Positions 1-11,631 of a stretch of 28,034 nt of DNA are shown one piece after another. Under the pieces are notes generated by a model. It made no database searches, was not told the origin of the DNA, and worked only from the letters and a program-made list of their open reading frames with translations. The DNA comes from a virus. Location: the IMG/VR virus record IMGVR_UViG_3300027777_000119, positions 1 to 28,034 of that record, one strand, 5' to 3'. The position numbers were made by a program, and so were the translations under genes. Positions within the stretch are counted from its first letter, which is position 1, and each line of letters opens with the position of its first letter.

Positions 1-40
1 TAGCAATAATGACTTTCTCGATCAATGTCTCTTTAATCAT
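1..40 (-). CDS. Start of an unidentified gene, cut by window edge
   Basis: Only the first 13 codons are present (product begins MIKETLIEKV); the gene runs off the left edge. The ATG overlaps the TGA of the preceding HTH gene as ATGA, and a GAGG ribosome binding site sits about six bases upstream, so the start is well supported. It continues the leftward early operon. Too little is visible to suggest a function. Confidence 0.6.
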   Translation of the reverse strand, partial: MIKETLIEKVIIA

Positions 41-297
41 TTCGGCCTCTTCAGTGCGCGGTATATCGCGTCATGTGTCATGCCCAGTTGGAAGGCGATC
101 TCTTTGTAGCTGACACCCGTCTCGCGCAGTGACCTTACCTTTTCCGCAAGGGCGTCGTGGAAAACCTTGCGGTCATACAGCCGCTGTCCTTGGCGCAAGA
201 TCGAAGCGGTTCTGCTCTGCGCTTTCTGGGGACTGCAGCGCTGCCCCTCGATCACGCAGTACGAGTCTGTGGGTGCGGCTGGTCGGGCGTATGGCAT
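37..297 (-). CDS. Small helix-turn-helix protein
   Basis: The product has 86 residues. The C-terminal third (about residues 60-85, SYKEIAFQLGMTHDAIYRAL) has the pattern of a resolvase- or sigma-type helix-turn-helix: a first helix with 'KEIA', a turn with 'LGM', and a recognition helix with 'IYRAL'. This suggests sequence-specific DNA binding. The N-terminal part is basic, proline/serine-containing and has no recognised domain. The start ATG overlaps the TAA of the upstream gene (TAATG), with AAAGGAG about 11 bases upstream. It is probably a phage regulator of the early arm; the target is unknown. Small phage HTH proteins of this kind are common, and no specific family is recognised. Confidence 0.65.
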   Translation of the reverse strand: MPYARPAAPTDSYCVIEGQRCSPQKAQSRTASILRQGQRLYDRKVFHDALAEKVRSLRETGVSYKEIAFQLGMTHDAIYRALKRPK

Positions 298-461
298 TAT
301 GAATTCTTCTCCTTTAACAACGCTTCAATTGCTCTGGCAAATTCAAATCTGTTTGCATATGGCATCGTATTACTAAGGGCAAATATTTCTGCATCATCCG
401 TCAGCCCGACCCAAGGGCGTTGTGGTGTTGCTTCCAATAATAGTTCGTCGAAAGTATTCAT
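297..461 (-). CDS. Small hypothetical protein (54 aa)
   Basis: The product has 54 residues (begins MNTFDELLLE). An upstream extension of the frame to 698 is arginine/proline-rich and antisense-like, so I reject it. The ATG at 461 overlaps the TGA of the 34-residue membrane peptide gene as ATGA, which fixes the start by translational coupling. The sequence is acidic and probably helical (FARAIEALLKE at the end), with no recognised domain. It belongs to a tight cassette of four small overlapping genes in the distal early arm. Function unknown. Confidence 0.6.
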   Translation of the reverse strand: MNTFDELLLEATPQRPWVGLTDDAEIFALSNTMPYANRFEFARAIEALLKEKNS

Positions 462-562
462 TTCTTGTCCATTTCGAAAATGCTTAAGGCGACCATCGCG
501 ATCAGCCCCAGCACGAAGGTGAAGCCGATCACGGCGAAGACGCAGAGCAGGAACAGAATCAT
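458..562 (-). CDS. 34-residue single-pass membrane peptide
   Basis: The product has 34 residues: a hydrophobic segment from about residue 2 to 27 (LFLLCVFAVIGFTFVLGLIA is its core) and a charged tail EMDKK. This looks like a small inner-membrane peptide with the tail in the cytoplasm. The start ATG overlaps the upstream TGA as ATGA and follows a G-rich ribosome binding site; the stop overlaps the next ATG the same way. These two couplings are the main reason to accept such a short gene. Function is unknown. A role in membrane remodelling or superinfection control is possible but not shown. Confidence 0.5.
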   Translation of the reverse strand: MILFLLCVFAVIGFTFVLGLIAMVALSIFEMDKK

Positions 563-777
563 ACGACCCCCAGCTTGACGGCCAACTCGGGGCGGTTGTC
601 GGCCAGCCACTTCGCGAACTTCGGAGTCTGCGCCGCCTTGGCGTAGCTGTGGGGCCACGCCCGGCTGGGCGACCGGATTGAACGAAAATACTCGGCAACC
701 TCCGCCGAGGGTTGCCAGCGGTTAGCGTTGTCAGCGCGACCGATGTGGCGGATGGTGTGCCAGTTCAGGGTGTTCAT
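559..777 (-). CDS. Small hypothetical protein (72 aa)
   Basis: The product has 72 residues (begins MNTLNWHTIR). I chose the ATG at 777 because GAGAGG lies upstream at good spacing; the longer frame starting at 855 overlaps the upstream gene heavily. The C-terminal half is rich in Ala, Lys and Trp (AKAAQTPKFAKWLADNRPEL) and is likely helical. No known domain. It sits 10 bases after the preceding gene and overlaps the next by four bases, so it is probably cotranscribed. Function unknown. Confidence 0.6.
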   Translation of the reverse strand: MNTLNWHTIRHIGRADNANRWQPSAEVAEYFRSIRSPSRAWPHSYAKAAQTPKFAKWLADNRPELAVKLGVV

Positions 778-787
778 CGCGGGCCTC

Positions 788-1099
788 TCAGAAGTTGTAA
801 TCGTAGAAACGGATCGGAGCATCGGCCAGCTTGTACTTGTGGCCGCTGGCATCACGCCAGCCGTGGCGCTTGGACAGGCGCAGGCGGATGACCGGGTTGC
901 TGTCGTTTTCGGTGATGATCCATTTTTGCTGCCGTTGGTTTACGAAGTAAGCGCAGTACCCACCGGCATAGGCTTCAAGCACCACGCTGGGGTCACGCTC
1001 GGAGTCGAGCGCACGCACTTCGATGGTTTTGTCCGTGATGGCGCGGACGACGATATACGGGCGGACGTCCGTGTAGGTGTGTTGGTTGGCGTATTTCAT
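788..1099 (-). CDS. Hypothetical protein downstream of an operator-controlled promoter
   Basis: The product has 103 residues (begins MKYANQHTYT). The ATG at 1099 is preceded by GAAAGCGA, a weak purine-rich site that recurs before other genes in this arm. The longer start at 1150 would lie inside the promoter/operator described at 1141-1170, so I reject it. The sequence is mixed beta/aromatic with basic stretches (RLRLSKRHGWRD) and no recognised domain. It is the first gene after that promoter and may head a short transcription unit down to position 1. Function unknown. Confidence 0.65.
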   Translation of the reverse strand: MKYANQHTYTDVRPYIVVRAITDKTIEVRALDSERDPSVVLEAYAGGYCAYFVNQRQQKWIITENDSNPVIRLRLSKRHGWRDASGHKYKLADAPIRFYDYNF

Positions 1100-1119
1100 T
1101 TTTCGCTTTCGAGGTTGGC

Positions 1120-1133
1120 CTGCACCGTTGCAG
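1120..1133 (-). other. Leader hairpin CTGCA-ACGG-TGCAG
   Basis: On the minus strand a perfect 5-bp stem CTGCA/TGCAG closes an ACGG loop, between the promoter at 1141-1170 and the start at 1099. Similar CTGC...GCAG hairpins occur in the leaders at 2063-2075 and 4898-4911, which makes chance less likely. It may influence translation or RNA stability (inference). Confidence 0.4.
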
Positions 1134-1140
1134 AGCCTGC

Positions 1141-1170
1141 AGTGTAACACGATCTTACACCGCAGGGTAA
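1141..1170 (-). promoter_or_regulatory. Leftward promoter with GTGTAA-N7-TTACAC operator
   Basis: Reading the minus strand: -35 TTACCC (1165-1170, poor match), 18-bp spacer, -10 TACACT (1141-1146). A perfect inverted repeat GTGTAA-N7-TTACAC occupies 1142-1160, covering the -10 and most of the spacer. The same -10, spacing and operator recur at 2964-2993 and 4919-4948. A protein bound here would block RNA polymerase, so repression is the likely mode. The small HTH protein encoded at 8382-8591 is a candidate repressor (inference). Confidence 0.6.
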
Positions 1171-1177
1171 TTATTTA

Positions 1178-2041
1178 TCAGAAACCGTATTTCTCGGCGC
1201 AGATCGGGCCGATGCCGCGCTCGATGCTGCTTGCGTCCGTCAGTTCGCGGGCGCAGATGGCGCAGGAGCCGAAGCGCTTGCCATATGCTACCGCAGCACT
1301 GGCTGGGTCGCTGGAGACCGCTACGATGCGATCTGATGCGTCCTTGGGGCAGTCGCGGGTTGCGAACAGACGGCCACCGACGACTTTGCCAAGGTAGGTC
1401 TCGTCTTCCTTGACGTAGATCGCGCCAGCATTGACACCCGTGTCCGGGGCAAGGCTGAAGACGAAAGTGTCGAGGCGCAGCTTCGGACGCTTGATGCCAG
1501 CGGCCTTGGCCTTGCCGAATGCAACTTCGATGGCCTCGACGCTGAGGGTCGGGGCGTCAGCAGCGCGGGTGGCCTGCTCTGCAGCACGGGTGACGAGGCG
1601 CTCAGCGGCCTTGAGGGTGAGGCGCTGCACGGTCTCAAGCTGGCGCTCTGTCAAGCTGCCGTACTTGAGCAGGGCGGCGTACACGCTGGCGGCGTACTCG
1701 AACTTCTCGACGTTGGCCTTCAGCCAAGCGCTCTCTGCCGGGTACGCCTCACTCCATGCCAGCACTTGGGTAGCCTTGGCGTCCGCCTTGGCCGACTCGC
1801 GGCGCTGCGTACCGGCCTTGGCCTTGGCGCGTGCGGTGGGGCTGGTCTTGAACGTGAGCTTGCCGGTGCCCTTGCAGGGCAGGCAGTTAGCGCCGAGGCG
1901 GCTGTGGTAGCCGTACAAGCCGCTGCCCGCGCACTTGGGGCAAAGCTGCTCGAACGTAACCGGGGCGGCTACGGTGGCGGCGGAGCCTTGAAAATCCAAG
2001 TCGCTTTCAAGGTCGTCAAATGCGGAGTAGGTCTGGTTCAT
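1178..2041 (-). CDS. DnaJ-type zinc finger and DUF6011 zinc-motif protein
   Basis: The product has 287 residues. Near the N-terminus is a CxxCxGxG pair (C34, C37, C53, C56; CPKCAGSG and CLPCKGTG), as in the DnaJ central zinc finger. A central Ala/Lys/Arg-rich helical region follows. The C-terminus (about 258-287) has C260, C263 and C281 in the pattern CxxC.reLtd...GiGPxC, matching the DUF6011 zinc-binding motif. Both ends therefore probably bind zinc; a nucleic-acid role is likely but unproven. I chose the ATG at 2041 over a longer start at 2098 because AAAGGA precedes it and its leader resembles that of the gene at 4588-4875. It has its own candidate promoter at 2083-2111. Confidence 0.75.
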   Translation of the reverse strand: MNQTYSAFDDLESDLDFQGSAATVAAPVTFEQLCPKCAGSGLYGYHSRLGANCLPCKGTGKLTFKTSPTARAKAKAGTQRRESAKADAKATQVLAWSEAYPAESAWLKANVEKFEYAASVYAALLKYGSLTERQLETVQRLTLKAAERLVTRAAEQATRAADAPTLSVEAIEVAFGKAKAAGIKRPKLRLDTFVFSLAPDTGVNAGAIYVKEDETYLGKVVGGRLFATRDCPKDASDRIVAVSSDPASAAVAYGKRFGSCAICARELTDASSIERGIGPICAEKYGF

Positions 2042-2062
2042 TTCGCTGTCCTTTCTGGGTTG

Positions 2063-2075
2063 CTGCACGTCGCAG
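2063..2075 (-). other. Leader hairpin CTGC-N5-GCAG
   Basis: A 4-bp stem CTGC/GCAG lies in the leader of the zinc-motif gene. The surrounding leader is similar to that at 4876-4918: CACTGC, then GCAGCAAC, then an AAAGGACAGCGA-type ribosome binding region just before ATG. The repetition suggests a duplicated leader. Confidence 0.4.
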
Positions 2076-2082
2076 TGATGCA

Positions 2083-2111
2083 ATAATAAATTAAACAAAG
2101 GGGGAATGCAA
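2083..2111 (-). promoter_or_regulatory. Candidate leftward promoter
   Basis: On the minus strand TTGCAT (2106-2111) is followed by a 17-bp spacer and TATTAT (2083-2088, five of six consensus bases). The -35 lies inside the loop of the hairpin at 2100-2116. No GTGTAA/TTACAC operator is present, unlike the other early promoters. It would serve the gene starting at 2041. Confidence 0.35.
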
Positions 2112-2122
2112 CCCCCCCCCCC
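2100..2122 (-). terminator. Candidate intrinsic terminator with an 11-base C/G tract
   Basis: The minus-strand transcript would form GGGGG-TTGCATT-CCCCC followed by a U-rich stretch (TTTGTTTAATTTATT). It begins two bases after the stop of the peptidase-like gene. The plus strand shows an unbroken run of 11 C (2112-2122), of which five make the stem. The run could slip during replication or sequencing. Termination here would separate the 2125-2514 gene from the one downstream. Confidence 0.45.
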
Positions 2123-2124
2123 GT

Positions 2125-2514
2125 TTACGCCTTGGCCCAGTACCCGTAGACCATGCGCTCAGTGCTGTCCCATGCGTCATAAGCAACACCGTCAATCACC
2201 GCTACAAAGTGACGGGCCTGCTTTGCAATGACCACGCCTTTGAGGTCACTGCAACGCGCCTTACGGCCTGCAAACTGTGGAGCCTTCATCCACACAAAAC
2301 CGTAACGCTTTAACACCTCTGTGTATAAATCTTTCATCACGCCGTTACGAGCAGACTTTGCGCGACCGTTGTCAGCATTGGCTTGAGCCAACTCCTTATA
2401 CACCGCGCTGTAGTCGAGGCCCAGTGCGATTGCCATTGCACGAGCGCCACAGTCGCCTGCGGTTCCCTTGAAGCCAGCGGCCTTGCGGCCTCCATCGTTG
2501 TATTGATATTTCAT
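2125..2514 (-). CDS. Probable papain-fold cysteine peptidase-like protein
   Basis: The product has 129 residues. Near the N-terminus is GDCGARAMAIAL (C22), and late in the protein RHFVAVIDGVAYDAWDS gives H102 and D113. The order Cys at the start of a helix, then His-containing strand, then Asp is the arrangement of papain-like and C39-like peptidases. Many phages encode small proteins with this 'GDC.tRA...HfvaviDG' layout, but activity is rarely tested. Start: GAAGGAAAG lies just upstream of the ATG. It could instead be an inactive fold or an amidase or transglutaminase-type relative. It sits among early genes, so a host protein is a possible target (inference). Confidence 0.65.
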   Translation of the reverse strand: MKYQYNDGGRKAAGFKGTAGDCGARAMAIALGLDYSAVYKELAQANADNGRAKSARNGVMKDLYTEVLKRYGFVWMKAPQFAGRKARCSDLKGVVIAKQARHFVAVIDGVAYDAWDSTERMVYGYWAKA

Positions 2515-2535
2515 TTCTCTTTCCTTCGCTGTGAT

Positions 2536-2551
2536 GGGGGCCGAAGCCCCC
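2536..2551 (-). other. Intergenic hairpin with C(UUCG)G loop
   Basis: The minus strand reads GGGGGC-TTCG-GCCCCC, a perfect 6-bp stem with the very stable UUCG tetraloop. It lies between the stop at 2559 and the ribosome binding site of the gene starting at 2514. There is no U tract, so it is more likely a pause, processing or stability element than a terminator. A near copy is at 4568-4581. Confidence 0.55.
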
Positions 2552-2558
2552 GGGATGG

Positions 2559-2924
2559 TTAAGCTGCTTGTTTTTCTGCAGCCGCACGGTCGGCTTCGGT
2601 GCCCTGCAAGATGTACTCGGTTGAGCCGTAGCGCGGATCAATTTCGTCCCAATGATCAAAATTGATTCCTCCTTTACGCGCATTGACACGGGCGGTGAGG
2701 ATGTCTGCTTTTGCCTCCGCCCACTCGCGGCGATCCTCAAAAAACGGCTCGAAGTCGTGCTGGTTGTACACCACCGCGCAACCCTTGAACTGCTCTTTGT
2801 GGCAAAACCGGCGACCCGCCGCGTTCTCGATCACCACAAAAAAAACCTCGGCGGTATAATCTTCGCCGTCTTCGGTCTTACCTGCTACATACAAGTCGCT
2901 GCTGGTGTGTGCGGTGTAGTTCAT
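2559..2924 (-). CDS. Hypothetical early protein (121 aa)
   Basis: The product has 121 residues (begins MNYTAHTSSD). The ATG at 2924 follows CGGAGA; the longer start at 2993 would run through the promoter and operator at 2964-2993 and is rejected. The sequence is acidic with alternating strands (DYTAEVFFVVIENAAGRRF) and a C-terminal Ala/Glu helix (AAAEKQAA). There is no recognised domain. It is the first gene behind an operator-controlled promoter, so it is likely made early. Function unknown. Confidence 0.7.
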   Translation of the reverse strand: MNYTAHTSSDLYVAGKTEDGEDYTAEVFFVVIENAAGRRFCHKEQFKGCAVVYNQHDFEPFFEDRREWAEAKADILTARVNARKGGINFDHWDEIDPRYGSTEYILQGTEADRAAAEKQAA

Positions 2925-2963
2925 TTTAATCTCCGGTTGGTAATTCGCTGTTTCAGTGAAGCT

Positions 2964-2993
2964 AGTGTAACAGCAAATTACACAACCGTACAA
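2964..2993 (-). promoter_or_regulatory. Leftward promoter with GTGTAA-N7-TTACAC operator
   Basis: Minus strand: -35 TTGTAC (2988-2993), 18-bp spacer, -10 TACACT (2964-2969). The perfect inverted repeat GTGTAA-N7-TTACAC is at 2965-2983. Upstream AT-rich sequence with AAAATAA and the downstream TAGCTTCACTG are shared with the module at 4919-4948, so roughly 65 bp look duplicated between the two sites. Confidence 0.65.
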
Positions 2994-3017
2994 GTTATTT
3001 AATAAGTGTTGTTTATT

Positions 3018-3494
3018 TTACACAATCTCACGCAGCGCCATGAACTCGAGCAGCGATTCCGCAACCAGCCAAGCGTTCAGATCCTCGGAATTTTCGGTGA
3101 GCCACAGGTCGATCCCTGCTATCGCGTAGCCGTACCCGATGTTCCACACCTCGGCATACCGCCGTGCCGCCTTGGGGCTCAGTCGGAAAAAGGGCTTGAC
3201 GTCCTCGGGTGCCACCGCACGCATGACGCGCTGGCTGCGCCCTGAGCGGGCCTTGCGGCGCTCCCCAGTGTCAATGATGTAGCCCTTGCGGAGCAGCGCC
3301 GCGTAGCGGGGCGACACGGAGTCGATGCGGTGATCGGGCAAGATCCACAGGATCTCTTCGCTCGTGCAGCCCTCGGGGTAGCTGCGGATGATGTCAAGCA
3401 CCAGCGTCTCAAGTGCGGTGGCGTTGACACGCTGCGCGGCCTCGTGGCTCGTGTCGGGGTCGGTAGCACGGGCCATCAATTTCGGATCAGTCAT
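3018..3494 (-). CDS. Winged-helix-like phage protein
   Basis: The product has 158 residues. It opens with ARATDPDTSHEAAQRVN, which precedes a winged-helix region (about residues 28-90: LVLDIIRSYPEGCTSEEI, then SPRYAALLRKGYIIDTGERR, the second helix and wing). This layout is common in phage proteins and suggests DNA binding. The C-terminal half is helical, without a known domain. AGGGAGA stands upstream of the ATG, which lies inside the end of the preceding gene (8-base overlap), so the two are probably coexpressed. The stop is just upstream of the 2964-2993 promoter. The specific role is unknown. Confidence 0.7.
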   Translation of the reverse strand: MTDPKLMARATDPDTSHEAAQRVNATALETLVLDIIRSYPEGCTSEEILWILPDHRIDSVSPRYAALLRKGYIIDTGERRKARSGRSQRVMRAVAPEDVKPFFRLSPKAARRYAEVWNIGYGYAIAGIDLWLTENSEDLNAWLVAESLLEFMALREIV

Positions 3495-4176
3495 TTAATT
3501 TCTCCCTGAAAGCATAGTCATGAAAAATAGCGCCCCGGGCGGGGTCGCCAACGATGCAACTCTTCACCCACACCGGGCCGTTCTTCGTGCGCCTGAAGTG
3601 GCCTCGGCGGTCATGCTGCCGGGGACTGGCGTGGGTGCCACCGTGGCTCTCGTTCTTTTGCTTTACCGGCTCGATATAAACCGTCACGAGTTCGTACAGC
3701 GGCAGCAGGCCACGCTTTGCTCTGCTGACGTTAGCCCTGTGTGGCACCGGCTTGTAGGACGTTGACGGCTGGCTGACAGACTCAAAGAAATTTGCCAGCA
3801 GGTGGCTGACAATGCTCAAATCCTCTTCCGTCGGCGGGTCATCATCCTCGGTCGGGCCTCTGCATATCAAACCTTCGTCGTTCGTGATAAACGTCATTGA
3901 CGGTATGCGCTGGTGGCTCTGCTGATAAATCTTTGAGCCCCCCACGATTATTCCGTCCTGCGTGTTGTTGCCGACAGCCACCAGAGCAAACTCCCAGCCC
4001 TCCTTGACTCGGCCCATAATCATGCAGCGGTGAAACGGGCTTCGCCCATTAAGCAGCCAAGCCGGGACATCGACCTCGTAGTTGAGGGCGTTTGAGATGT
4101 CAAACCACTGCAGGTCAGTAGGGTCGTTCCCCCCCTTTGCCCACCACTTGACCATCTCGCGCACGAGCGGTGTCAT
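3487..4176 (-). CDS. Conserved-type phage hypothetical protein (229 aa)
   Basis: The product has 229 residues. The C-terminal region carries a His/Arg-rich block, about residues 178-215 (SPRQHDRRGHFRRTKNGPVW followed by VGDPARGAIFHDY). This block looks like the C-terminus of many phage proteins of unknown function; I know no biochemical role. The N-terminal part has mixed alpha/beta character with an acidic central linker (EDDDPPTEEDLS). The start ATG overlaps the preceding TGA as ATGA, and AGGGGAAG is well placed. The basic block could contact nucleic acid (inference). Confidence 0.65.
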   Translation of the reverse strand: MTPLVREMVKWWAKGGNDPTDLQWFDISNALNYEVDVPAWLLNGRSPFHRCMIMGRVKEGWEFALVAVGNNTQDGIIVGGSKIYQQSHQRIPSMTFITNDEGLICRGPTEDDDPPTEEDLSIVSHLLANFFESVSQPSTSYKPVPHRANVSRAKRGLLPLYELVTVYIEPVKQKNESHGGTHASPRQHDRRGHFRRTKNGPVWVKSCIVGDPARGAIFHDYAFREKLND

Positions 4177-4379
4177 TTCTTCCCCTGCTCGATCTGCAGT
4201 TGACGCTCACGCAGGGCGTCGATCTCTGCCCAGAGCTTGATCGCATAAGTGTCGTCGCACTGGTACTCGCCGACGCGCAGCGTGTCGTGGCAGTCCTTCA
4301 GGGCCGTTGCACAGGCAAGGGCGGAGTACGTCCGCACCTTGGCCGTGAACACCTCGCGGAGGTGTTCGATGCAGGTCAT
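4173..4379 (-). CDS. Small hypothetical protein (68 aa)
   Basis: The product has 68 residues, largely helical and charged, ending LRERQLQIEQGKK. It has three cysteines (C3, C23, C30) in its N-terminal half and no recognised domain. ATGA overlaps occur at both ends, with an AAAGGTG ribosome binding site upstream, so it is part of a coupled run from 4540 to 3018. Function unknown. Confidence 0.6.
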   Translation of the reverse strand: MTCIEHLREVFTAKVRTYSALACATALKDCHDTLRVGEYQCDDTYAIKLWAEIDALRERQLQIEQGKK

Positions 4380-4540
4380 GCAATCACCTTTTGCAGTGCC
4401 TCAATTAATTGACGCGCCTCGTCGGGCGTGATCACAACACGAACGCTGGCGCACGTCACGCCGATGGACAGCCACACGTCGGCCTGAAATTCATCAATGT
4501 GGATGTGACCATCGTTTACGGCAAGGGTTGTTTTTTTCAT
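4376..4540 (-). CDS. Small hypothetical protein (54 aa)
   Basis: The product has 54 residues (MKKTTLAVND at the start, ARQLIEALQKVIA at the end). A beta-rich first half is followed by a C-terminal helix, a layout seen in small phage proteins of unknown role. The ATG is preceded by GAAAGCGA, the same weak site as at 1099, and the stop overlaps the next ATG as ATGA. It is the first gene after the UUCG hairpin at 4568-4581. No domain recognised. Confidence 0.6.
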   Translation of the reverse strand: MKKTTLAVNDGHIHIDEFQADVWLSIGVTCASVRVVITPDEARQLIEALQKVIA

Positions 4541-4567
4541 GATTCGCTTTCGATTGGGTTTTAATCA

Positions 4568-4581
4568 GGGGCCGAAGCCCC
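4568..4581 (-). other. Intergenic hairpin with C(UUCG)G loop, second copy
   Basis: The minus strand reads GGGGC-TTCG-GCCCC, a 5-bp stem with a UUCG loop. It is almost identical to the hairpin at 2536-2551 and similarly placed, after one stop codon and before the next ribosome binding site. No U tract follows. Confidence 0.55.
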
Positions 4582-4587
4582 CGTGGT

Positions 4588-4875
4588 TTACTTGCTGGTG
4601 ACCTTGACGCTGAACACGGCAGTGACCTTGGTGTGCTTGGCAATCTGGGCCGAGGTTGCGCCCAGTTCGGCCAGCAGCGCCTTGTTGTCAACTACTGAGC
4701 GGTTGGACTCAATGTAGGTAGCTTTGAAGAGGTCGCCCTCAACCACGGTGTCGCCACCGAGGCTGGCGCTGTCCTTGATGCCGTCTTTGATGGCGTCGGC
4801 CTGCTTGGTCAACGCTGCGATCTGGGCCAGCAGAGCGCCGAGGGTGTCTACGTCGTGGGTGAGGGTGATGTTCAT
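4588..4875 (-). CDS. Small coiled-coil-like early protein (95 aa)
   Basis: The product has 95 residues. The first 40 form a probable helix or coiled coil (LGALLAQIAALTKQADAIKD). The rest is beta-like, with SNRSVVDNKALLAELG and a basic end VFSVKVTSK. The layout recalls small phage proteins of the Gp157 or nuclease-inhibitor kind, but I cannot assign it. The ATG follows AAAAGGA at good spacing. It is the first gene behind the operator-controlled promoter at 4919-4948. Confidence 0.65.
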   Translation of the reverse strand: MNITLTHDVDTLGALLAQIAALTKQADAIKDGIKDSASLGGDTVVEGDLFKATYIESNRSVVDNKALLAELGATSAQIAKHTKVTAVFSVKVTSK

Positions 4876-4897
4876 GTCGCTGTCCTTTTCAAAGTTG

Positions 4898-4911
4898 CTG
4901 CGTTAGTGCAG
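4898..4911 (-). other. Leader hairpin CTGC-N6-GCAG
   Basis: A 4-bp CTGC/GCAG stem in the leader of the gene starting at 4875. It is placed like those at 1120-1133 and 2063-2075. Confidence 0.4.
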
Positions 4912-4918
4912 TGAAGCT

Positions 4919-4948
4919 AGTGTAACCCGAAATTACATCTGTACACAA
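4919..4948 (-). promoter_or_regulatory. Leftward promoter with near-perfect GTGTAA-N7-TTACAC operator
   Basis: Minus strand: -35 TTGTGT (4943-4948), 18-bp spacer, -10 TACACT (4919-4924). The inverted repeat is at 4920-4938 with a single mismatch in the upstream arm (ATGTAA). Flanks match the 2964-2993 module on both sides. It serves the gene starting at 4875. Confidence 0.65.
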
Positions 4949-4965
4949 CTTATTTGTGATTGTTG

Positions 4966-5256
4966 TTATTTTGCCTCACCTAACAGTTTCCGCACTTCGG
5001 CAAGCATAGAGTCCTCGTCGTAGCCGTAGTGCTTCGGGAAGCCCTTCGTGCCAAGCCCGTGGAGGCCCGTAGCGCCCCTGTGATGCTCTGGGCATAACGG
5101 GATAGCCAACAGGTGGTTTGCGCGTCTCCCAGCCCCTGTACCGGCCCTCTTGTGGTGTATTTCGGCTGGGGTGCCCTCATACCCAAGCCGCTTGCATACG
5201 ATGCAGCCAATCTCCGCCACGCGGTTTAAGCGCTTTTTCTCGGCAAGCGTGGTCAT
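4966..5256 (-). CDS. Ref-like HNH nuclease (RecA-dependent nuclease family)
   Basis: The product has 96 residues. It shows C18 and C21 (CIVC), EIHHKRAG (H34, H35), H48, then IPLCPEHHRG (C55, H58, H59) and H66. This order of Cys pairs and His residues matches the HNH/zinc core of phage P1 Ref, a nuclease that cuts at RecA-made D-loops. P1 Ref is about twice as long; this protein holds only the nuclease core. It overlaps the upstream gene as ATGA and has GGGGAGGG before the start. Its place after RusA suggests recombination or DNA processing. Activity and RecA dependence are inferred from the family. Confidence 0.8.
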   Translation of the reverse strand: MTTLAEKKRLNRVAEIGCIVCKRLGYEGTPAEIHHKRAGTGAGRRANHLLAIPLCPEHHRGATGLHGLGTKGFPKHYGYDEDSMLAEVRKLLGEAK

Positions 5257-5588
5257 AACGTGGCCCTCCCCTCGGCGCGGTTGGTGGCCTCTTTGCTGCG
5301 CCAGACTTCGATGCGGGCCTGCGCTGCCACCAGACCCCAGCGAATCTCCTCTTCGGCCTCCACAGCGGCCTTCAATCCCTTCAGCAGGGCAACATACTCC
5401 GGGTCACTGTAGGCGTCTCGCTCCTGCGCGTTAACGGCGCTCTCGATACTGCGCTTCATCAAGATCGCCTTGAGGCTCTTGCGAAATTCTTCGCAGTAAA
5501 TCCGATTCGCTTTCGCTTCGGCAAAGCGCTTGCCCTGCTCAAAAATGTACTCAATCGCTGCGTCCGGGTCTTTGATGTCACTTCTCAT
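5253..5588 (-). CDS. Hypothetical helical protein next to rusA
   Basis: The product has 111 residues, helical throughout and rich in Ala, Glu, Arg and Lys. Recognisable stretches are EAKANRIYCEEFRKSLKAIL and ARIEVWRSKEATNR. Similar small proteins often sit beside rusA in phages, but I know of no defined function. AGGGGAA precedes the ATG. It overlaps RusA by 11 bases and the Ref-like gene by four, so the three are likely made together. It may be an accessory of recombination or replication (inference from position). Confidence 0.65.
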   Translation of the reverse strand: MRSDIKDPDAAIEYIFEQGKRFAEAKANRIYCEEFRKSLKAILMKRSIESAVNAQERDAYSDPEYVALLKGLKAAVEAEEEIRWGLVAAQARIEVWRSKEATNRAEGRATL

Positions 5589-5934
5589 TGCGTTCCCCTA
5601 TCGTCACTTTCAACATTCCACCGATGATCGGTGCCCAATAAATTCTCAAATTGCTGATCTGGCTGTCGTCTTTGTAGACTCCTGCATGGCACAGCGCGTC
5701 CAGCGGGGCTTTGAGCAGGTTGTCGAGGTCGCGCTTGCGTCTGTCCGGTTGCCACGCCTCTATCGTCATGTCGAGCTTGCCGGTGAGCCCGGCGTCCGCC
5801 CCCTGATCGCGCACCAGCACGCACACGGCAGCACGGTACTCCCGGCCCTTGGCGCTGATGATCATGCGGCCCCGGAACGTGCGCCAGTACGCATTCACGC
5901 TCGGGGGCCACGGCAGTGTGATTTCAATGCTCAA
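5578..5934 (-). CDS. rusA: RusA-family Holliday junction resolvase
   Basis: The product has 118 residues, the usual RusA length. It starts with the family's LPWPPSVNAYWR and carries RRKRDLDNLLKAPLDAL and YKDDSQI. By alignment with E. coli RusA (D70, D72, K76, D91) the catalytic residues are D69, D71, K75 and D90, all present. The enzyme should cut four-way junctions to resolve recombination or branched replication products. The start is TTG: it overlaps the helicase TGA as TTGA and has a strong GGAGG six bases upstream, while no ATG fits. It follows the helicase and precedes two small genes. Confidence 0.92.
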   Translation of the reverse strand: MSIEITLPWPPSVNAYWRTFRGRMIISAKGREYRAAVCVLVRDQGADAGLTGKLDMTIEAWQPDRRKRDLDNLLKAPLDALCHAGVYKDDSQISNLRIYWAPIIGGMLKVTIGERNEK

Positions 5935-6938
5935 GCTGAGCCTCCATCAAATGATTCTGGATAGCCGTTGTTGTTGTCCAGAAATTGCTGGCTGTCGCGG
6001 TGATACCAGAGGCTGTACCAGTCCTCGGCCTCGCCGTTGCGCTGCTTCTCGCACATCAGGTAGGCGTCAGGGGTGCCCGGGTCTGGCGTCTGGCCTGCTT
6101 GGATCTGGTGTTCTTTCTTTTTGTTGCGAAACACCATCAGCACATTGTCCACCTGATCGGCAATCGCCCCCGTGCCCTTGATGTCGCTCTTGCTGGGCAT
6201 CGTCTCTTCGTTCCCCAGCTTGCGGATGTGGTGGACGAGGTGGATGTGGATGTTGTGGTCGCGGGCCAGCGAGGTCAGTTCGTCAACAAAAGACTTTTGC
6301 GCGTTGTAGTCGTCCTCGCCCGTAACGCATTTCATGAGCGAGTCGATAAAGACGTGCTGGATGCCAAGCTCCACCGCGCAGTACCGCGCCATCGCGATGA
6401 CCTGCTGGCTCGACGTCGTCCCCTGCTGATCGTAAAACCACAGCTTGCCGTAAGCAAAGTTGCCGAAACGGGCCAGCAGCCGGGTGACGTAAACGGACTT
6501 ATCGATCAGGCGCGGCTGCTCGATATTCTCTCCGCTGAACTGGCGCAGCATCCGGTACAGCGTGCGCTTTGGTTTCATTTCGAAACTAGCAATACAGATG
6601 CGCTGACCCTGCTTAATCAGGCCAAGGGCAATCTGGCCGGTGATCAGCGACTTGCCACCGCCGTTGCTGCCAGCGTAGCAAGTGACCTCACCCGGGCGGA
6701 ACTTGAAGCCGTCGAAGGTCTTTGACCACGGCATCGTGGACGTCTCGTCTTCCGCCTTGGGATTGACTAAGTCCTGCTCGACCTCGTCAAGGTAGACGCC
6801 CGCGTAATGGACTTTGTGCGACACGTCGTTGGCCTTCAAATACTTTTCCGTGTCGATCTCTTTGGAGCTTATCAGACGCACCTTGCGGGCCTCGTCCAGT
6901 GCGCGTGCGCGTTGCTCAATCGCTGTAATTTCAGACAT
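5931..6938 (-). CDS. DnaB/gp4-type replicative helicase (RecA-fold ATPase)
   Basis: The product has 335 residues. Motifs in order: Walker A GSNGGGKS (about 90-97), SFEMK with a likely catalytic Glu near 120, Walker B HVFIDS (195-200), HLVHH (233-237), KGTGAIADQVDNV (255-267) and KQRNGE (298-303, arginine-finger region). These match hexameric DnaB and T7 gp4 helicase domains. There is no primase domain in the protein. I chose the ATG at 6938 because GAGGT precedes it; a longer start at 6977 lacks support. It overlaps the zinc-domain gene by eight bases. It probably unwinds phage DNA at the fork. Confidence 0.88.
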   Translation of the reverse strand: MSEITAIEQRARALDEARKVRLISSKEIDTEKYLKANDVSHKVHYAGVYLDEVEQDLVNPKAEDETSTMPWSKTFDGFKFRPGEVTCYAGSNGGGKSLITGQIALGLIKQGQRICIASFEMKPKRTLYRMLRQFSGENIEQPRLIDKSVYVTRLLARFGNFAYGKLWFYDQQGTTSSQQVIAMARYCAVELGIQHVFIDSLMKCVTGEDDYNAQKSFVDELTSLARDHNIHIHLVHHIRKLGNEETMPSKSDIKGTGAIADQVDNVLMVFRNKKKEHQIQAGQTPDPGTPDAYLMCEKQRNGEAEDWYSLWYHRDSQQFLDNNNGYPESFDGGSA

Positions 6939-7353
6939 TTGTATACCTCGTTGCCTCATCAATTCGCTGGTATGCAAGACGCATTCTTTCCTGCGTCTGC
7001 TCGGTCACTTCTTTGCCCTCTGCAATATCGAGGGCCACAATCTTCACAACAAGCGCTTCAAAGTGAATAATTCGCATCAGGTCGGACGCATAGAACTGCG
7101 TCTTCAGGCGCGGCTTGCTCTGCTGCCCGTCGAGCTTCGGCGGGAACAAGTCTGCCATATCCATACCGACCGCCCCAAGCACGCTGTGGACATCGCAGCC
7201 GCCGAAACAGTGGATCAGCACCCGGCCATCGTCGCCCTCTTTCACGGCCAGTGACGGCGACCTATCCTCGTGCGCTGGGCAGCAGGCAGTCCACGTCCCA
7301 TTACGGCCCTTGACCTTGGACAAGCGCGACAGGAAATTCTCAACAGGTGTCAT
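6931..7353 (-). CDS. CHC2-type primase zinc-binding domain protein
   Basis: The product has 140 residues. C25, H28, C49 and C53 (CCPAHED...HCFGGCD) form the CHC2 zinc ribbon of DnaG and T7-type primases, followed by the family's VLGAVGMDMADLFP. There is no TOPRIM catalytic domain here or in the helicase that follows, so this is a stand-alone template-recognition domain. The C-terminal 60 residues are helical and may contact the helicase. AAAGGGGG gives a strong start. The gene overlaps the helicase gene by eight bases. Full primase activity would need another protein from phage or host. Confidence 0.85.
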   Translation of the reverse strand: MTPVENFLSRLSKVKGRNGTWTACCPAHEDRSPSLAVKEGDDGRVLIHCFGGCDVHSVLGAVGMDMADLFPPKLDGQQSKPRLKTQFYASDLMRIIHFEALVVKIVALDIAEGKEVTEQTQERMRLAYQRIDEATRYTNV

Positions 7354-7366
7354 CTTTTACCCCCTT

Positions 7367-7738
7367 TCAAAACAGGTTTTTCTGCTTGGAATTAAACGGC
7401 ACCCGCTTGTCACCAAAAATGTTGCTGCGCCACAGAGTAACCTCGGCCATGTGGTTATGCGACTGCACAGGCTCAACTTTCGATACCGACGAAATCCAGC
7501 CAATTTGCTGCAAAGCCCTTGCGCCACTGACCCATGTGTTGTGATGCAAATTGCTTGGCAAACTCAAACCCTGCAACTCACACTGCGCTCTGAACTCGTC
7601 ACCCATGACAAAAGGACGATTCAGCAAAAAGTTTTGCATGATCTCCAAATACTGCTCAACAAAAATAGGTGCGGCACGATAAGCCTTGCCCCAACATTTA
7701 TCGGCCAGTATCAACGCCTGTTTCATGCGCTCGGTCAT
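7367..7738 (-). CDS. Hypothetical protein within the replication cluster
   Basis: The product has 123 residues. It contains FVMGDEFRAQCELQGLSLPS and a region around residues 66-80 with ARALQQIGWISSV, a helical arrangement seen in small phage proteins near replication genes. There is no catalytic motif. It overlaps the DUF1376 gene as ATGA and lies 13 bases before the primase gene, so it is probably translated together with replication proteins. I do not recognise a function. Confidence 0.6.
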   Translation of the reverse strand: MTERMKQALILADKCWGKAYRAAPIFVEQYLEIMQNFLLNRPFVMGDEFRAQCELQGLSLPSNLHHNTWVSGARALQQIGWISSVSKVEPVQSHNHMAEVTLWRSNIFGDKRVPFNSKQKNLF

Positions 7739-8385
7739 ATCACCCTCCGTCCCATCGTAGCCTCGCCCTGATCGTCTTCCCAGCGTCGTTGGTTGATGTA
7801 CGTCAACGGTGCTGGCTCGTAGCCGCTAGTCCACTGCTCCGAGCCCCGCAGGCCGGTGACGCTGGCAATGATTCGGTCAGCCACCGTGTCGAGCTTGAGC
7901 TTCAGCCACTTCGTCTCGCAAGTGGACTTCGCCACCTTACGCTTCGACGTCGGCCATGTTGCCCAGAACTCGTCGAATCGTGATGTCGTCGTCGTTTGCG
8001 ACAATGTCTTTATATTCTGTATCTGTATCTTCTTAGGGTTATTGTTCGCTTTCGATTCGGTTACCGATTCGGTTTTCTTCGGCCTGCCGCCTAGCTTTCC
8101 GAGTCGTTGATTATTTGCAACCTGCGCTTGATACCTCTCGATTTCGACATGACAACGATTGTTGAAATAGCCGTTTTCGGTATGTTCAAAGAATTCACCC
8201 AAAACCGATTCGGTTATGTCCTCATCAAGCCTGATTTTGCGTGACACAACGCGGATGTCAAGAGGGATTGGCTTCTCTGACATATAGTACAAATCAAGCA
8301 AACGACGATATGCTAAGTCCTCAGCATCGGACAGATGCACGGTGTGGGTGAGATAGTCACCGATATGGAATTTGTACCAGATCAC
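7735..8385 (-). CDS. DUF1376 (YdaU-like) replication protein
   Basis: The product has 216 residues. Residues 1-85 match DUF1376: WYKFHIGDYLTHTVHLSDAE, then YRRLLDLYY, IPLD and GEFFEHTENGYFNNRC. A Lys/Asn-rich linker follows. The C-terminal part (about 137-205, FDEFWATWP...WLKLKLD...TYINQRRWED) resembles the end of phage replication or helicase-loading proteins. Such proteins usually precede a helicase, as here, and likely bind the origin or load the helicase (known from context in other phages, not from a direct assay). The start is GTG with GGAGG upstream, overlapping the HTH gene as GTGA. Confidence 0.8.
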   Translation of the reverse strand: MIWYKFHIGDYLTHTVHLSDAEDLAYRRLLDLYYMSEKPIPLDIRVVSRKIRLDEDITESVLGEFFEHTENGYFNNRCHVEIERYQAQVANNQRLGKLGGRPKKTESVTESKANNNPKKIQIQNIKTLSQTTTTSRFDEFWATWPTSKRKVAKSTCETKWLKLKLDTVADRIIASVTGLRGSEQWTSGYEPAPLTYINQRRWEDDQGEATMGRRVI

Positions 8386-8591
8386 TTGAGTCCTCCGAAG
8401 ACGTCAGGGCGCAGCGTTTCGCGGGTCACTTGGCCCTTAGTAAGCTGCTCAATCGCGTTACACAGTTGGGGGCTTGGTGCCTGCCGATTTGTGATAATAA
8501 GGCTCAGCCAAGTCTTGCTGATGCCTAGTGCCGTCGCCATTTCTAGCTTCGAGCCTCGCGGCTTGGTTGAGAAAAATTCAGTCAGTGTCAT
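8382..8591 (-). CDS. YdaS/Cro-type HTH regulator
   Basis: The product has 69 residues. It has the small Cro/YdaS-type layout: GSKLEMATALGISKTWLSLI is the helix-turn-helix, then ITNRQAPSPQLCNAIEQL, and VTRETLRPD close to the end. This is the 'LRPD' signature of YdaS-like and Cro-like regulators, which bind short inverted repeats. It is the first gene of the leftward arm and lies next to the divergent control region with a degenerate GTGTAA/TTACAC repeat. It is my best candidate for the protein that binds that operator family. No CI-like partner is visible in the window. Confidence 0.8.
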   Translation of the reverse strand: MTLTEFFSTKPRGSKLEMATALGISKTWLSLIITNRQAPSPQLCNAIEQLTKGQVTRETLRPDVFGGLK

Positions 8592-8610: not shown

Positions 8611-8657
8611 GTTTAACGTAATCATACACAATAAATTATTTTGCACAAGGGGCTTGT
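8611..8657. promoter_or_regulatory. Divergent control region with promoter and operator-like repeats
   Basis: The gap 8592-8714 separates the leftward HTH gene from the rightward operon. Leftward: -35 TTGTGC (8643-8648), 16-bp spacer, -10 TATGAT (8621-8626). The repeat at 8611-8629 reads GTGTAT-N7-TTAAAC on the minus strand: one mismatch per arm to the GTGTAA-N7-TTACAC operators and the same 19-bp length. A separate palindrome ACAAG-GGG-CTTGT is at 8645-8657. For the rightward genes I see TTTAAT (8667-8672) as a possible -10 but no good -35. Confidence 0.5.
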
Positions 8658-8714
8658 ATGAATAAGTTTAATTTGGTACAGTGCGATCTCACAAACAGCG
8701 AAAAGGAAAGCGAA

Positions 8715-8897
8715 ATGAAAGTCGTGCCTTACACAACGCCGAGCGGCCTGCAGATTGGGTGCCGGTATGAGCCGAAGGCTGTATATACGGTCAGTCAAGA
8801 CATGGAGTTACTCCAGTCGTCGTTGTTGTCGAGCAGCAAAGCCACACCGCTCAGCAGGCTGCGGCGGTTCTGGAAAAACTGCTTTAGGTATGACTGA
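8715..8897 (+). CDS. Small hypothetical protein, first gene of the plus operon
   Basis: The product has 60 residues. AAGGAAAG lies seven bases before the ATG at 8715, so I prefer it over the upstream ATG at 8658, which lies in the divergent control region. The sequence contains VPYTTPSGLQIGCRYEP and SQDMELLQSSLL, then a basic C-terminus. Small phage proteins with similar SQDMELLQ stretches exist, but their function is unknown. The stop overlaps the next start (TGATG). Confidence 0.6.
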   Translation: MKVVPYTTPSGLQIGCRYEPKAVYTVSQDMELLQSSLLSSSKATPLSRLRRFWKNCFRYD

Positions 8898-9076
8898 TGG
8901 AACACGAAGCGAGTGAAGCGATGGCAGAAAGGATGCAAATGCTTGAGGAGGCGCTAGATCGGGCCGAAGCAGGCGTTGCAAAAGCAGGCGACTGGGCAAT
9001 AATCCGCTACGAGTGCGGGATGCCCAAGCGCAATTCGGAAGTATCAAAAGCGTACAAATGGAGTGACATATTATGA
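8897..9076 (+). CDS. Small hypothetical protein (59 aa)
   Basis: The product has 59 residues (begins MEHEASEAMA), with an amphipathic Glu/Ala/Met-rich helix in the first half and a basic end. The start overlaps the previous stop (TGATG) and the stop overlaps the ATG of the ssDNA-binding-like gene (ATGA). These two couplings are the main evidence; no domain is recognised. It is probably cotranslated with its neighbours. Confidence 0.6.
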   Translation: MEHEASEAMAERMQMLEEALDRAEAGVAKAGDWAIIRYECGMPKRNSEVSKAYKWSDIL

Positions 9077-9720
9077 GTTTGATTGCGAGAGACAGTGGCG
9101 GCGGTGGATCTTTTACGCCAGTCCCCCCGGGTATGTATCTGGCGCGTTGCTACCGGATCATCGACCTCGGCACACAGCGCTCTGACGGCCAGTACGGCCC
9201 CAAGTCGTTGCAGAAAGTCATGCTGCAGTTTGAAGTCCACGGCGAAGACGACGCAGGCAAATCCTTGACTACGGCCAAGGGTGAAGCGATGTCGATCAGC
9301 AAGAATTTTACGTTGTCGTTGGCTGAAAAGGCGACGCTGCGGATTGACCTGCAGACGTGGCGCGGCAAGAATTTCACGCGAGAAGAACTGGAAGGGTTTG
9401 AACTCAAGAACGTCCTCGGCGCATGGGCCATGCTCAACGTCAGCAAGTCCATTGGCAATAACGGCAAAGAGTACACAAACATCGTGACGATCAACAGCGT
9501 TCCCAAACAACTGCGTGAGAAACTGCCGACCCCGTCAAACAAGACCGCCATGTTTGCAATTGAGAACCCGGACATGGCCCTGTTTGAGACGTTCAGTAAC
9601 AGCTTGAAACTCAAGATCGAGGCCAGCCCTGAGTGGCAGGCGCGGTCGAGCAAGCCAAGCAAACTTGCCAATCCCGGCGTTGAATTTGAAGATCTTGATT
9701 CCGACATACCTTTTAATTAG
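9073..9720 (+). CDS. ssDNA-binding-like replication protein (DUF669-like)
   Basis: The product has 215 residues. The first 150 are beta-rich (VPPGMYLARCYRIIDLG, then VMLQFEVHGED and AWAMLNVSKS), in the pattern of DUF669-type phage replication proteins that resemble OB-fold ssDNA-binding proteins. A flexible Ser/Lys/Pro region leads to the acidic end FEDLDSDIPFN. Bacterial SSB ends in a very similar D-D-I-P-F tip, which docks partner enzymes. It therefore probably coats ssDNA and recruits nuclease or helicase partners (inference). It overlaps the gene upstream as ATGA and lies in the same operon as the PD-(D/E)XK nuclease. Confidence 0.75.
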   Translation: MSLIARDSGGGGSFTPVPPGMYLARCYRIIDLGTQRSDGQYGPKSLQKVMLQFEVHGEDDAGKSLTTAKGEAMSISKNFTLSLAEKATLRIDLQTWRGKNFTREELEGFELKNVLGAWAMLNVSKSIGNNGKEYTNIVTINSVPKQLREKLPTPSNKTAMFAIENPDMALFETFSNSLKLKIEASPEWQARSSKPSKLANPGVEFEDLDSDIPFN

Positions 9721-9762
9721 AACGGGCCTATAATGGTTGCTCCAAAGTCACTGGAGTTCAAC

Positions 9763-10197
9763 ATGGTTCGTTCTAAAACTTGTTTCAAGTGCAACGCTGT
9801 CAAGCCATTGGAAGAATTTTACAAACATCCAATGATGCTTGACGGCCATGTCAACAAATGCAAAGAATGCAACAAAAATGATGTTACAACCAATCGAAAC
9901 AAAAACATTGACCGATTCAGAGCTTATGACAGAGAGCGTGGAAAAAATACGGAGCGAAAGAAAGCTGCCGCAGAAATTTCAATAGCGTGGCGACAGGCAG
10001 ACGCAAGACGCCAAAGCTGTCACAACAAAGTTGCACGGGCAATACGAAATGGAACATTGGTTCGACAACCCTGCATTCGATGCAAAGCAGAAAAATCGTT
10101 AGCGCATCACGAAGATTATGACAATCCTCTTGATGTAATGTGGCTTTGCCAACCATGCCATAAACAGCGGCATAAAGAATTAAAACTACTTTTCTAA
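9763..10197 (+). CDS. HNH endonuclease with two zinc-binding pairs
   Basis: The product has 144 residues. The N-terminus has CFKC (C7, C10) and CKEC (C33, C36), a zinc-binding pair of knuckles. The C-terminus has CIRC (C104, C107), AHHEDYDNPL (H115, H116), then CQPCHKQRH (C129, C132, H133, H137), the HNH core seen in phage homing-type nucleases. The ATG at 9763 follows GGAG; an upstream ATG at 9733 lacks a ribosome site. It is more AT-rich than its neighbours and, unlike them, not coupled to the gene before it. It may be a selfish insert or a packaging-type or homing nuclease; the target is unknown. Confidence 0.8.
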   Translation: MVRSKTCFKCNAVKPLEEFYKHPMMLDGHVNKCKECNKNDVTTNRNKNIDRFRAYDRERGKNTERKKAAAEISIAWRQADARRQSCHNKVARAIRNGTLVRQPCIRCKAEKSLAHHEDYDNPLDVMWLCQPCHKQRHKELKLLF

Positions 10198-10207
10198 AGG
10201 GGCACCC

Positions 10208-10435
10208 ATGTTTATTTCAAATGCACACAAAGAAGCAATCTTTACCGTGATTGAAGAGTTGATCATCCGTGTTACGGCGTTGGAAGACAAGCGCGTGGCA
10301 GTGCCTAAAAAAGTCCGCTTGCCTCTCACTGAAAAGCAAGTTATGCAAGCAGCGAGGCAGCGCGAATACAACCGCCGCTACAAGGCCAAAAAGAAGCTGG
10401 CAAACGAAGTGGCTGCTGTCGCGGTGGTTCAATGA
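10208..10435 (+). CDS. Small basic hypothetical protein (75 aa)
   Basis: The product has 75 residues, with an N-terminal helix (HKEAIFTVIEELIIRVTALE) and a strongly basic middle (RQREYNRRYKAKKK), so nucleic-acid binding is plausible. No domain is recognised. AAAGGGG precedes the ATG. The stop overlaps the next ATG as ATGA, so it is coupled to the PD-(D/E)XK nuclease and could be its partner (inference). Confidence 0.55.
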   Translation: MFISNAHKEAIFTVIEELIIRVTALEDKRVAVPKKVRLPLTEKQVMQAARQREYNRRYKAKKKLANEVAAVAVVQ

Positions 10436-11205
10436 TTGCAAAAGAAATTCGGGCCAGCGAAAGCCAGCACTGGTACACCCGTGACGGCGTACCCCGGTAC
10501 ACTGTCATGGGAAAGAACGGTAAGGAGCGCAATACAACCCTGCGTGACGCCCGCACCGAAAGTCTGGTGCCGAGCGTTACAACGGTGTTGAACGTCGCAG
10601 CCAAGCCCGCCCTGATGCAGTGGATGCAGCGCCAAGTCCTGATGGCCGCGCTCACGCTACCCAAGGTTGACAATGAGGTGGAGGATGATTACATCTCCCG
10701 CATCATTCAAGACAGCAAGGAGCAGGGCAGGGCCGCTGCGGATGCCGGTACAGACATCCACGCCGCCGTCCAAGGCTTTTATGAGGGTCAGGTATACCCC
10801 CGCCATGAACATCACGTCAGAGGGTGCATTACGGCCCTCCGTGTGCATTTTGGTGATGTTGGCTGGATCCCCGAGCGGTCATTCGGCCACAGCCACGGTT
10901 TTGGCGGAAAGTCCGACCTGTACGTCCCGGCCTCCGAAGGGTTCGACGGGATTGTTGTTGACGTCAAGACCAAAGAATTCTCAGACCCAACGAAGGTCGA
11001 TGCTTACGATGAGCATCTGATGCAGCTTGCTGCATACCGGGTAGGGCTGGGCGTCCCTGCAGCACGTTGTGCAAACATCTTTGTCTCCCGTACCGTCCTT
11101 GGCCTGTCCGTGGTCAAGGAGTGGAGCGCAGAAGACTTAGACCGTGGCTGGGAGATGTTCTGCTCCCTGCTTAAATTTTGGCAACTGAAGAACAAACACA
11201 CATGA
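10432..11205 (+). CDS. PD-(D/E)XK nuclease, RecB/Cas4-like
   Basis: The product has 257 residues. Motifs: GTDIH with H110, E149, GGKSDLY with D162, VVDVKTK with D177 and K179, and QLAAY with Q198 and Y202. The G..H, D, DxK and QxxxY order is that of RecB, Cas4 and phage-type PD-(D/E)XK exonucleases; QxxxY is typical of the RecB/Cas4 branch. There is no four-cysteine iron-sulphur cluster as in Cas4. It may resect DNA ends for recombination or process replication ends, with the nearby SSB-like protein. The ATG overlaps the preceding TGA. Confidence 0.82.
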   Translation: MIAKEIRASESQHWYTRDGVPRYTVMGKNGKERNTTLRDARTESLVPSVTTVLNVAAKPALMQWMQRQVLMAALTLPKVDNEVEDDYISRIIQDSKEQGRAAADAGTDIHAAVQGFYEGQVYPRHEHHVRGCITALRVHFGDVGWIPERSFGHSHGFGGKSDLYVPASEGFDGIVVDVKTKEFSDPTKVDAYDEHLMQLAAYRVGLGVPAARCANIFVSRTVLGLSVVKEWSAEDLDRGWEMFCSLLKFWQLKNKHT

Positions 11206-11420
11206 AAACCATCAACGCATTCGTCACCACCGACGGGGCTCTTTTTGAAACCAAGAGTCTTGCCGAGAAGCACGAAATGACGCTCAGCAAGCTGGGGCTC
11301 ATTGCCGACTTTTTGGGCAGCGAGTTCAACAAGTACCCGGCCCGACAGCAGAGCGTAATTGCCAAGAATTCAATCATTGGCTGGGAACTGTGGAAGGTGA
11401 AAAATGACCTACCTAAGTGA
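11202..11420 (+). CDS. Small hypothetical protein (72 aa)
   Basis: The product has 72 residues (begins MKTINAFVTT). The start ATG overlaps the nuclease stop as ATGA; an upstream start at 11178 lies inside the nuclease gene. The stretch FVTTDGALFETKSLAEKHEM recalls a family of small phage proteins with no known role. No domain recognised. It is probably cotranslated with the nuclease. Confidence 0.6.
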   Translation: MKTINAFVTTDGALFETKSLAEKHEMTLSKLGLIADFLGSEFNKYPARQQSVIAKNSIIGWELWKVKNDLPK

Positions 11421-11631
11421 CGATACGGTTAAGCAAATATTCTTCTACTGCGCCGATGACGACAAAACGGCAGTATTTGCCGACAATGTTGACATCGTGC
11501 AGTTTGCTGACAAGATTATTGCCTACGCCCGCCCCTTGATTGCCAAAGACGAACACGCCCGCTGTGTGCAAATTGTGCGAGACATGAACAAGGACGTTGC
11601 TAAAGCCCTTGAAGGTCAGTTGCCGAAGTAG
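11404..11631 (+). CDS. Small hypothetical protein, end of plus operon
   Basis: The product has 75 residues, acidic and helical (begins MTYLSDDTVK). It overlaps the preceding gene by 17 bases, with GAAGGTG just before its ATG. Its last 16 bases overlap the 3' end of the lytic transglycosylase gene on the other strand (11616-11631). No domain recognised. Function unknown. Confidence 0.6.
   Translation: MTYLSDDTVKQIFFYCADDDKTAVFADNVDIVQFADKIIAYARPLIAKDEHARCVQIVRDMNKDVAKALEGQLPK

Follow-up and report, generated by a model that had tools for sequence, protein, structure and literature searches.

In the 28,034-base viral record IMGVR_UViG_3300027777_000119, analysed over its full length and called the window below, a 19-bp inverted repeat (GTGTAA-N7-TTACAC, hereafter the dyad) lies over several leftward early promoters and recurs in degenerate form over the promoter of ydaS (8382-8591, minus strand). 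This gene heads the leftward early region and encodes a Cro-type helix-turn-helix (HTH) protein. From comparison of the window with its relatives, we consider it highly probable that these repeats are the operators of one autoregulated YdaS-family (Cro-type) repressor, the product of 8382-8591, which would shut off dispersed early promoters. Replication genes and small early genes run leftward from 1 to 8591, a rightward block occupies 8715-11631, and leftward virion genes follow from 11616 onward.

The dyad is exact at 1142-1160 (GTGTAACACGATCTTACAC) and 2965-2983 (GTGTAACAGCAAATTACAC); the copy at 4920-4938 (GTGTAACCCGAAATTACAT) departs from it at one position, reading ATGTAA-N7-TTACAC in minus-strand orientation. 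As the initial annotation of this sequence had described, each copy coincides with a leftward promoter that has the -10 hexamer TACACT and an 18-bp spacer: promoter 1 (-10 at 1141-1146, -35-like TTACCC at 1165-1170), promoter 2 (-10 at 2964-2969, preceded by TG, with -35 TTGTAC at 2988-2993), and promoter 3 (-10 at 4919-4924, -35-like TTGTGT at 4943-4948). The common flank of about 65 bp that it had noticed for two of the modules belongs to sites 2 and 3, which are roughly 75% identical there by eye. All three of its sites are present, but at least four exist; the one overlooked, at 8611-8629 (GTGTAT-N7-TTAAAC, minus strand), has two mismatches and covers the ydaS promoter, whose -10 TATGAT (8621-8626) lies inside the other arm, with -35 TTGTGC at 8643-8648 and a 16-bp spacer. 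Sites of the same class are present in relatives. All four dyads are intergenic, in an early region that is only 7% intergenic.

The window has three sites with no more than one mismatch; over 300 simulated windows the average was 0.05, and no run gave more than 2. Single palindromes were rejected as evidence, since perfect 6-N7-6 palindromes are as frequent in the window as expected (8 observed, 8.1 expected); the significance of the dyad rests instead on its repetition, and a repeated perfect 6-N7-6 palindrome arose in only 2 of 100 simulations.

Approximately 150 relative loci were assembled, 80 of them through the helicase at 5931-6938, a query that matched at least 600 IMG/VR stretches, and about 75 more through a YdaS alignment. 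A megablast search of the phage collection for close cultured relatives gave no match, and the best helicase match within that collection was 34%. Across the ~150 loci the 19-bp dyad, with N7 fixed, lies on leftward early promoters, including sites homologous to operator 1. Besides one exact site, the relatives contain 62 sites with one mismatch, against 0-1 for each control pattern, and in 18 records the dyad is confined to the early region and the early strand, with no matches to the controls. When the left arm was left unconditioned, the hexamers found at N7 from 71 noncoding early-strand copies of TTACAC were concentrated in a few forms (GTTTAA 16, GTGAAA 16, TTGTAA 6, GTGAAT 3). Coding TTACAC in the relatives has no comparable concentration of left arms. 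The outer arm is specific to clades (GTTTAA, GTGAAA, TTGTAA), and the perfect palindrome on which the initial annotation had built, exact as it is in the window, is peculiar to it, most relatives having one clade-specific arm. An independent IMG/VR scan in which the left arm was fixed only at AA returned GTTTAA 36, GTGAAA 11 and GTGTAA 6 times among matches with a leader hairpin (see below), with other arms in other phages; the hairpin filter matters because the pattern is short enough for chance matches.

The promoter hexamers of the window are weak (at most 8/12, under the cut-off of the promoter scan), so the promoter identity of its sites rests on the relatives. There, sigma-70 hexamers 15-18 bp apart are clear, with TTGACA-N16-TATACT standing where the window has its weak hexamers, and TATACT or TACACT occupies the position homologous to the -10 of promoter 1. 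The 18-bp spacer holds for promoters 1-3 but is not general, as many relatives have 15-16 bp.

The position of the -10 within the dyad differs among promoter types. At promoters of the window type, the right arm supplies the -10 (TACACT); in the group defined by the YdaS recognition helix SKTWFSL, the right arm gives a -10 of TAAACT or TATACT, and TTGACN precedes it by 16 bp; in another class (e.g. loci L005, L028, L069, L077 and L081), a TTGACN-like -35 is paired with a TACAAT or TATAAT -10 in the centre of the dyad; and at the ydaS promoters the -10, TATGAT or TAACAT, falls within the left arm. N7 is constant in every one of these types despite the shifting register of the -10, which argues that the dyad is an operator and not a promoter element. 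A constant N7 with a moving -10 is what a bound dimer would be expected to produce, and not what a sigma factor would.

The proposed ligand of the four sites is well placed by family and fold. The product of 8382-8591 matches PF15943 at 50.8 bits (curated cut-off 30; E 1.4e-13), and each of 15 records examined encodes exactly one YdaS. It also matches the YdaS of prophage CP-933P (PDB 8co2 and 8c7k) by sequence (E 5e-13), and its structure model (predicted local distance difference test, pLDDT, 91.7) aligns with 8co2 at a template modelling (TM) score of 0.88 (E 7.6e-5), the next match being Xfaso 1 Cro. Pfam classes YdaS as a toxin, but the case has been made that it is an analogue of Cro (PMC5917428). 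Electrophoretic mobility shift, footprint and reporter experiments showed that the YdaS of CP-933P binds both its own promoter and the divergent one and represses them; the region contains 18-bp repeats with the consensus GTTTAGTAA (PMC8630535), and this consensus is similar to the GTTTA half-site of the present phages.

Of 110 distinct loci, 97 have the dyad over the ydaS promoter, and the form that it takes there follows the early promoters of the same phage. Phages with the early arm GTGAAA have GTGTAT-N7-TTTCAC at ydaS, those with TTGTAA have TTGTAT-N7-TTACAA, and those with GTTTAA have GTGTAT-N7-TTAAAC; the early arm recurs in inverted orientation at the ydaS of the same phage in 21/21 cases for GTGAAA and 5/5 for TTGTAA, and the ydaS-site arm in GTTTAA phages is GTTTAA (28), GTGTAA (12) or ATGTAA (1). 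The recognition helix of YdaS also varies across clades (TKQWMAA, SRTWLAL, SKTW(M/L)SL, SKTWFSL). TKQWMAA accompanies GTGAAA in 18/18 cases, SRTWLAL accompanies TTGTAA in 6/6, and SKTWFSL occurs mostly with GGTTAA. On a YdaS tree the ydaS-promoter arm requires 9 changes versus 13, a better fit, but this site is linked to the gene.

The sites, their overlap with promoters, their conservation, their recurrence at ydaS, and the family and fold of YdaS are supported by sequence. From these we infer the binding by YdaS, the dimer stoichiometry, the repression and its timing. Early in infection, host sigma-70 polymerase would transcribe ydaS together with several internal leftward early promoters. 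As YdaS accumulates, it would bind the 19-bp dyad as a dimer, contacting two 6-bp arms that are 13 bp apart centre to centre. Bound YdaS would then cover the spacer and -10 box and block polymerase at the scattered early promoters as well as at the ydaS promoter, and the outcome would be a coordinated early shut-off. The idea in the initial annotation that one protein might control several early units through an operator over the -10 and spacer thus gains support from the clade-wide dyad, its fixed N7 and its recurrence at ydaS.

Several observations weigh against this assignment. The ydaS site of the window has two mismatches to the palindrome. Phages with the SKTWFSL helix carry GGTTAA only at ydaS and GTTTAA at their early promoters, so that the match between arms is not universal. 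Changes of the early arm number 5 on each of the YdaS, helicase and DUF1376 trees, which does not discriminate among them; the correlation between arm and helix rests on few independent shifts, its statistical weight is therefore modest, and part of it could be due to clade history alone. In an out-of-sample check with four distant YdaS phages that have other early arms (CTTTAA, CTTRAA, ATCTAA), no clear partner was found at the ydaS promoters. One distant phage, the 57-kb spring-water phage MW202545.1 (locus L281), whose YdaS is 45% identical, has ATCTAA-N7-TTAGAC at 17260 and 18175 near early genes, at least one of them with TTGACA upstream and a hairpin downstream; a matching dyad at its ydaS was not found. 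Finally, the 18-bp repeats of CP-933P sit where PaaR2 and YdaS both bind, and the exact YdaS site was left open in that work (PMC8630535).

YdaS might bind the dyads without having lytic shut-off as its main role, and instead act chiefly as a repressor of the lysogeny type or in superinfection immunity, or activate some of the promoters. Temperate phages typically have dispersed operators (SPbeta MrpR/SPBRE, PMC10516654; mycobacteriophage stoperators, PMC9283540), and operator specificity has diverged between clades, as among immunity groups. We nevertheless regard this as unlikely. No tyrosine integrase was found in 19 records, no resolvase in 15, no S24 repressor in 15 (the search was for the S24 family, and a CI from a different one, for example PaaR2, could remain) and no AAA_31 ParA in 14; because the records are classed as possibly incomplete, these absences do not prove that lysogeny genes are lacking. 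A lambdoid immunity region (CI/Cro/CII module) would also have a CII/YdaT gene beside ydaS, but the next gene here (7735-8385) encodes only a DUF1376 protein. The search of 84,980 species genomes gave one match only, a phage-like contig in a metagenome-assembled genome. Activation by YdaS is disfavoured because the dyad overlaps the -10. More speculatively, phages without recognisable lysogeny genes may keep a Cro-type regulon in which YdaS, during lytic infection, both times early shut-off and blocks the early promoters of co-infecting relatives with the same specificity, which would amount to immunity groups without lysogeny.

It is improbable that another phage or host regulator binds the dyad and that ydaS is merely another of its targets. 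A regulator gene need not adjoin its sites, and the initial annotation had named three HTH candidates, of which 8382-8591 fits. The other two do not: 37-297 is without a homologue in the relatives, and of the 71 loci with sites only 13 have 3018-3494. In addition, the arms vary between clades together with the recognition helix of YdaS, which would be unexpected for a shared host factor. Very improbable, finally, is the reading in which the conserved block is no more than the spacer and -10 of an early promoter, possibly one for a special sigma factor, and its symmetry is incidental: the right arm is the -10 box in most early sites, and the AT-rich upstream block and the leader are conserved too, but a sigma element would hold its place relative to the start site, whereas N7 is kept with the -10 in the right arm, centre or left arm, and the clade-specific arms reappear inverted at ydaS. 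An alternative sigma factor, a host regulator and an intrinsic terminator were likewise set aside, given the N7 dyad with its moving -10, the clade-specific arms and the lack of a T-run.

A second conserved feature, not described in the initial annotation, is a hairpin that early messages in this group seem to carry at their 5' ends. In the window, the predicted hairpin is clear at promoter 1 (CTGC-AACGGT-GCAG, 1120-1133, 7 nt past the -10, with covarying stems in relatives) and promoter 3 (CTGC-ACTAAC-GCAG, 4898-4911), and weak at promoter 2 (CTG-AAA-CAG, 2948-2956), where it is the poorest of the set; all are on the minus strand. It begins at the sixth or seventh base past the -10 box. Among promoters with a detected stem, the start lies 7 nt past the -10 in 72/114 standard and 14/23 shifted promoters, so the hairpin follows the start site whatever the position of the operator. 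The stems are compensatory (CTGAC/GTCAG, CTGC/GCAG, CGGTC/GACCG, ACGAC/GTCGT, CCAAC/GTTGG, GACACCAA/TTGGTGTC), the loop often has the form AGCAA..GCA, and the mean folding z-score of 115 leaders is -1.8. The hairpin is found also in phages with other operator arms: the same promoter and leader hairpin occur with CTCTAA, CTTTAA, CTTRAA or ATCTAA in L168, L185, L214, L257, L171, L179 and others. The likeliest role would be to shield early mRNA from decay.

Each of the three promoters precedes a small leftward gene. The first gene of the promoter 1 unit (788-1099) encodes 103 aa (phrog_19789) and the gene behind promoter 2 (2559-2924) encodes 121 aa (phrog_1507), both of unknown function; the gene behind promoter 3 (4588-4875) encodes 95 aa (phrog_6244) and has a homologue in 62 of the 71 relative loci with sites. 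A divergent rightward early promoter, TTGTAT-N17-TACAGT (8654-8682, plus strand), is conserved in many relatives (8654-8717), and no proper N7 dyad was found on it. Since an ATG at 8658 lies inside this promoter, 8715 is the probable start of the first rightward gene. A recurrent start region of approximately GAAAGGA-AGCGAA-ATG is found at several early genes on both strands (2039-2047, 4538-4548, 4873-4881, 1097-1107, 8709-8717). Elsewhere in the window, a strong terminator-like stem with a C run (plus strand) lies at 2092-2127 behind gene 2125-2514; 25560-26609 encodes a 349-residue, beta-propeller-like protein built of repeats such as AVAHVTTPYISVYPWSAGFGTKYA; and 15955-19350 encodes a protein of more than 1,100 residues with long Thr/Gly-rich and Asp/Thr-rich repeats.

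The matching contig, from a Limnohabitans metagenome-assembled genome, is collinear with the early genes of the window and carries homologues of its virion genes, which is only a hint that Limnohabitans is the host. Three isolated Limnohabitans phages are 76, 39 and 41 kb (PMC12195039), and the present group is roughly 54 kb.

For a group of freshwater phages that is both abundant and uncultured, this arrangement offers a regulatory wiring that can be tested. Its repressor/operator pairs also form a natural series, with the YdaS recognition helix and the half-site changing together, useful for reading the DNA code of Cro/YdaS proteins. A multi-operator Cro-type network where no CI repressor or integrase is recognised asks, in turn, what purpose such a repressor serves.

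In phiC31, a repressor acts on conserved inverted repeats at many early promoters, and the PeSL elements of T4-type phages are repeated cassettes of promoter and stem-loop; in both systems the proteins and sequences differ from those described here. The SAS/ESAS elements of cluster K mycobacteriophages are likewise repeated intergenic cassettes; they contain an inverted repeat and directly precede the start codons of some genes, but they are unrelated in sequence and have no link to a repressor promoter reported there (PMC3203893). The sequence upstream of starts in the window, of AGCGA type, differs from the 13-bp SAS at start codons, GGGATAGGAGCCC. Cluster A mycobacteriophages have many repressor sites scattered through the genome, but at these stoperators, which lack symmetry and often lie outside promoters, a monomer binds and elongation is stopped (PMC9283540), whereas the sites here are intergenic, have dyad symmetry and lie over early promoters. 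SPbeta, too, has one repressor with many dispersed promoter sites in the phage genome (SPBRE/MrpR, PMC10516654), although with a 15-bp motif, another repressor protein and a role in maintenance of a temperate prophage. The closest parallel in protein is YdaS of CP-933P (PMC8630535; PDB 8co2, 8c7k), the nearest homologue of solved structure. It has the same family and fold and likewise sits in a divergent early control region; the promoters there, too, carry inverted repeats whose halves are of GTTTA type, and it represses itself, as is here proposed from sequence. CP-933P differs in having 18-bp repeats in place of the 19-bp (N7) dyad and ydaT downstream in place of the DUF1376 gene; in the phages described here, no CI-type partner is recognised, and the sites lie scattered among the early genes over kilobases.

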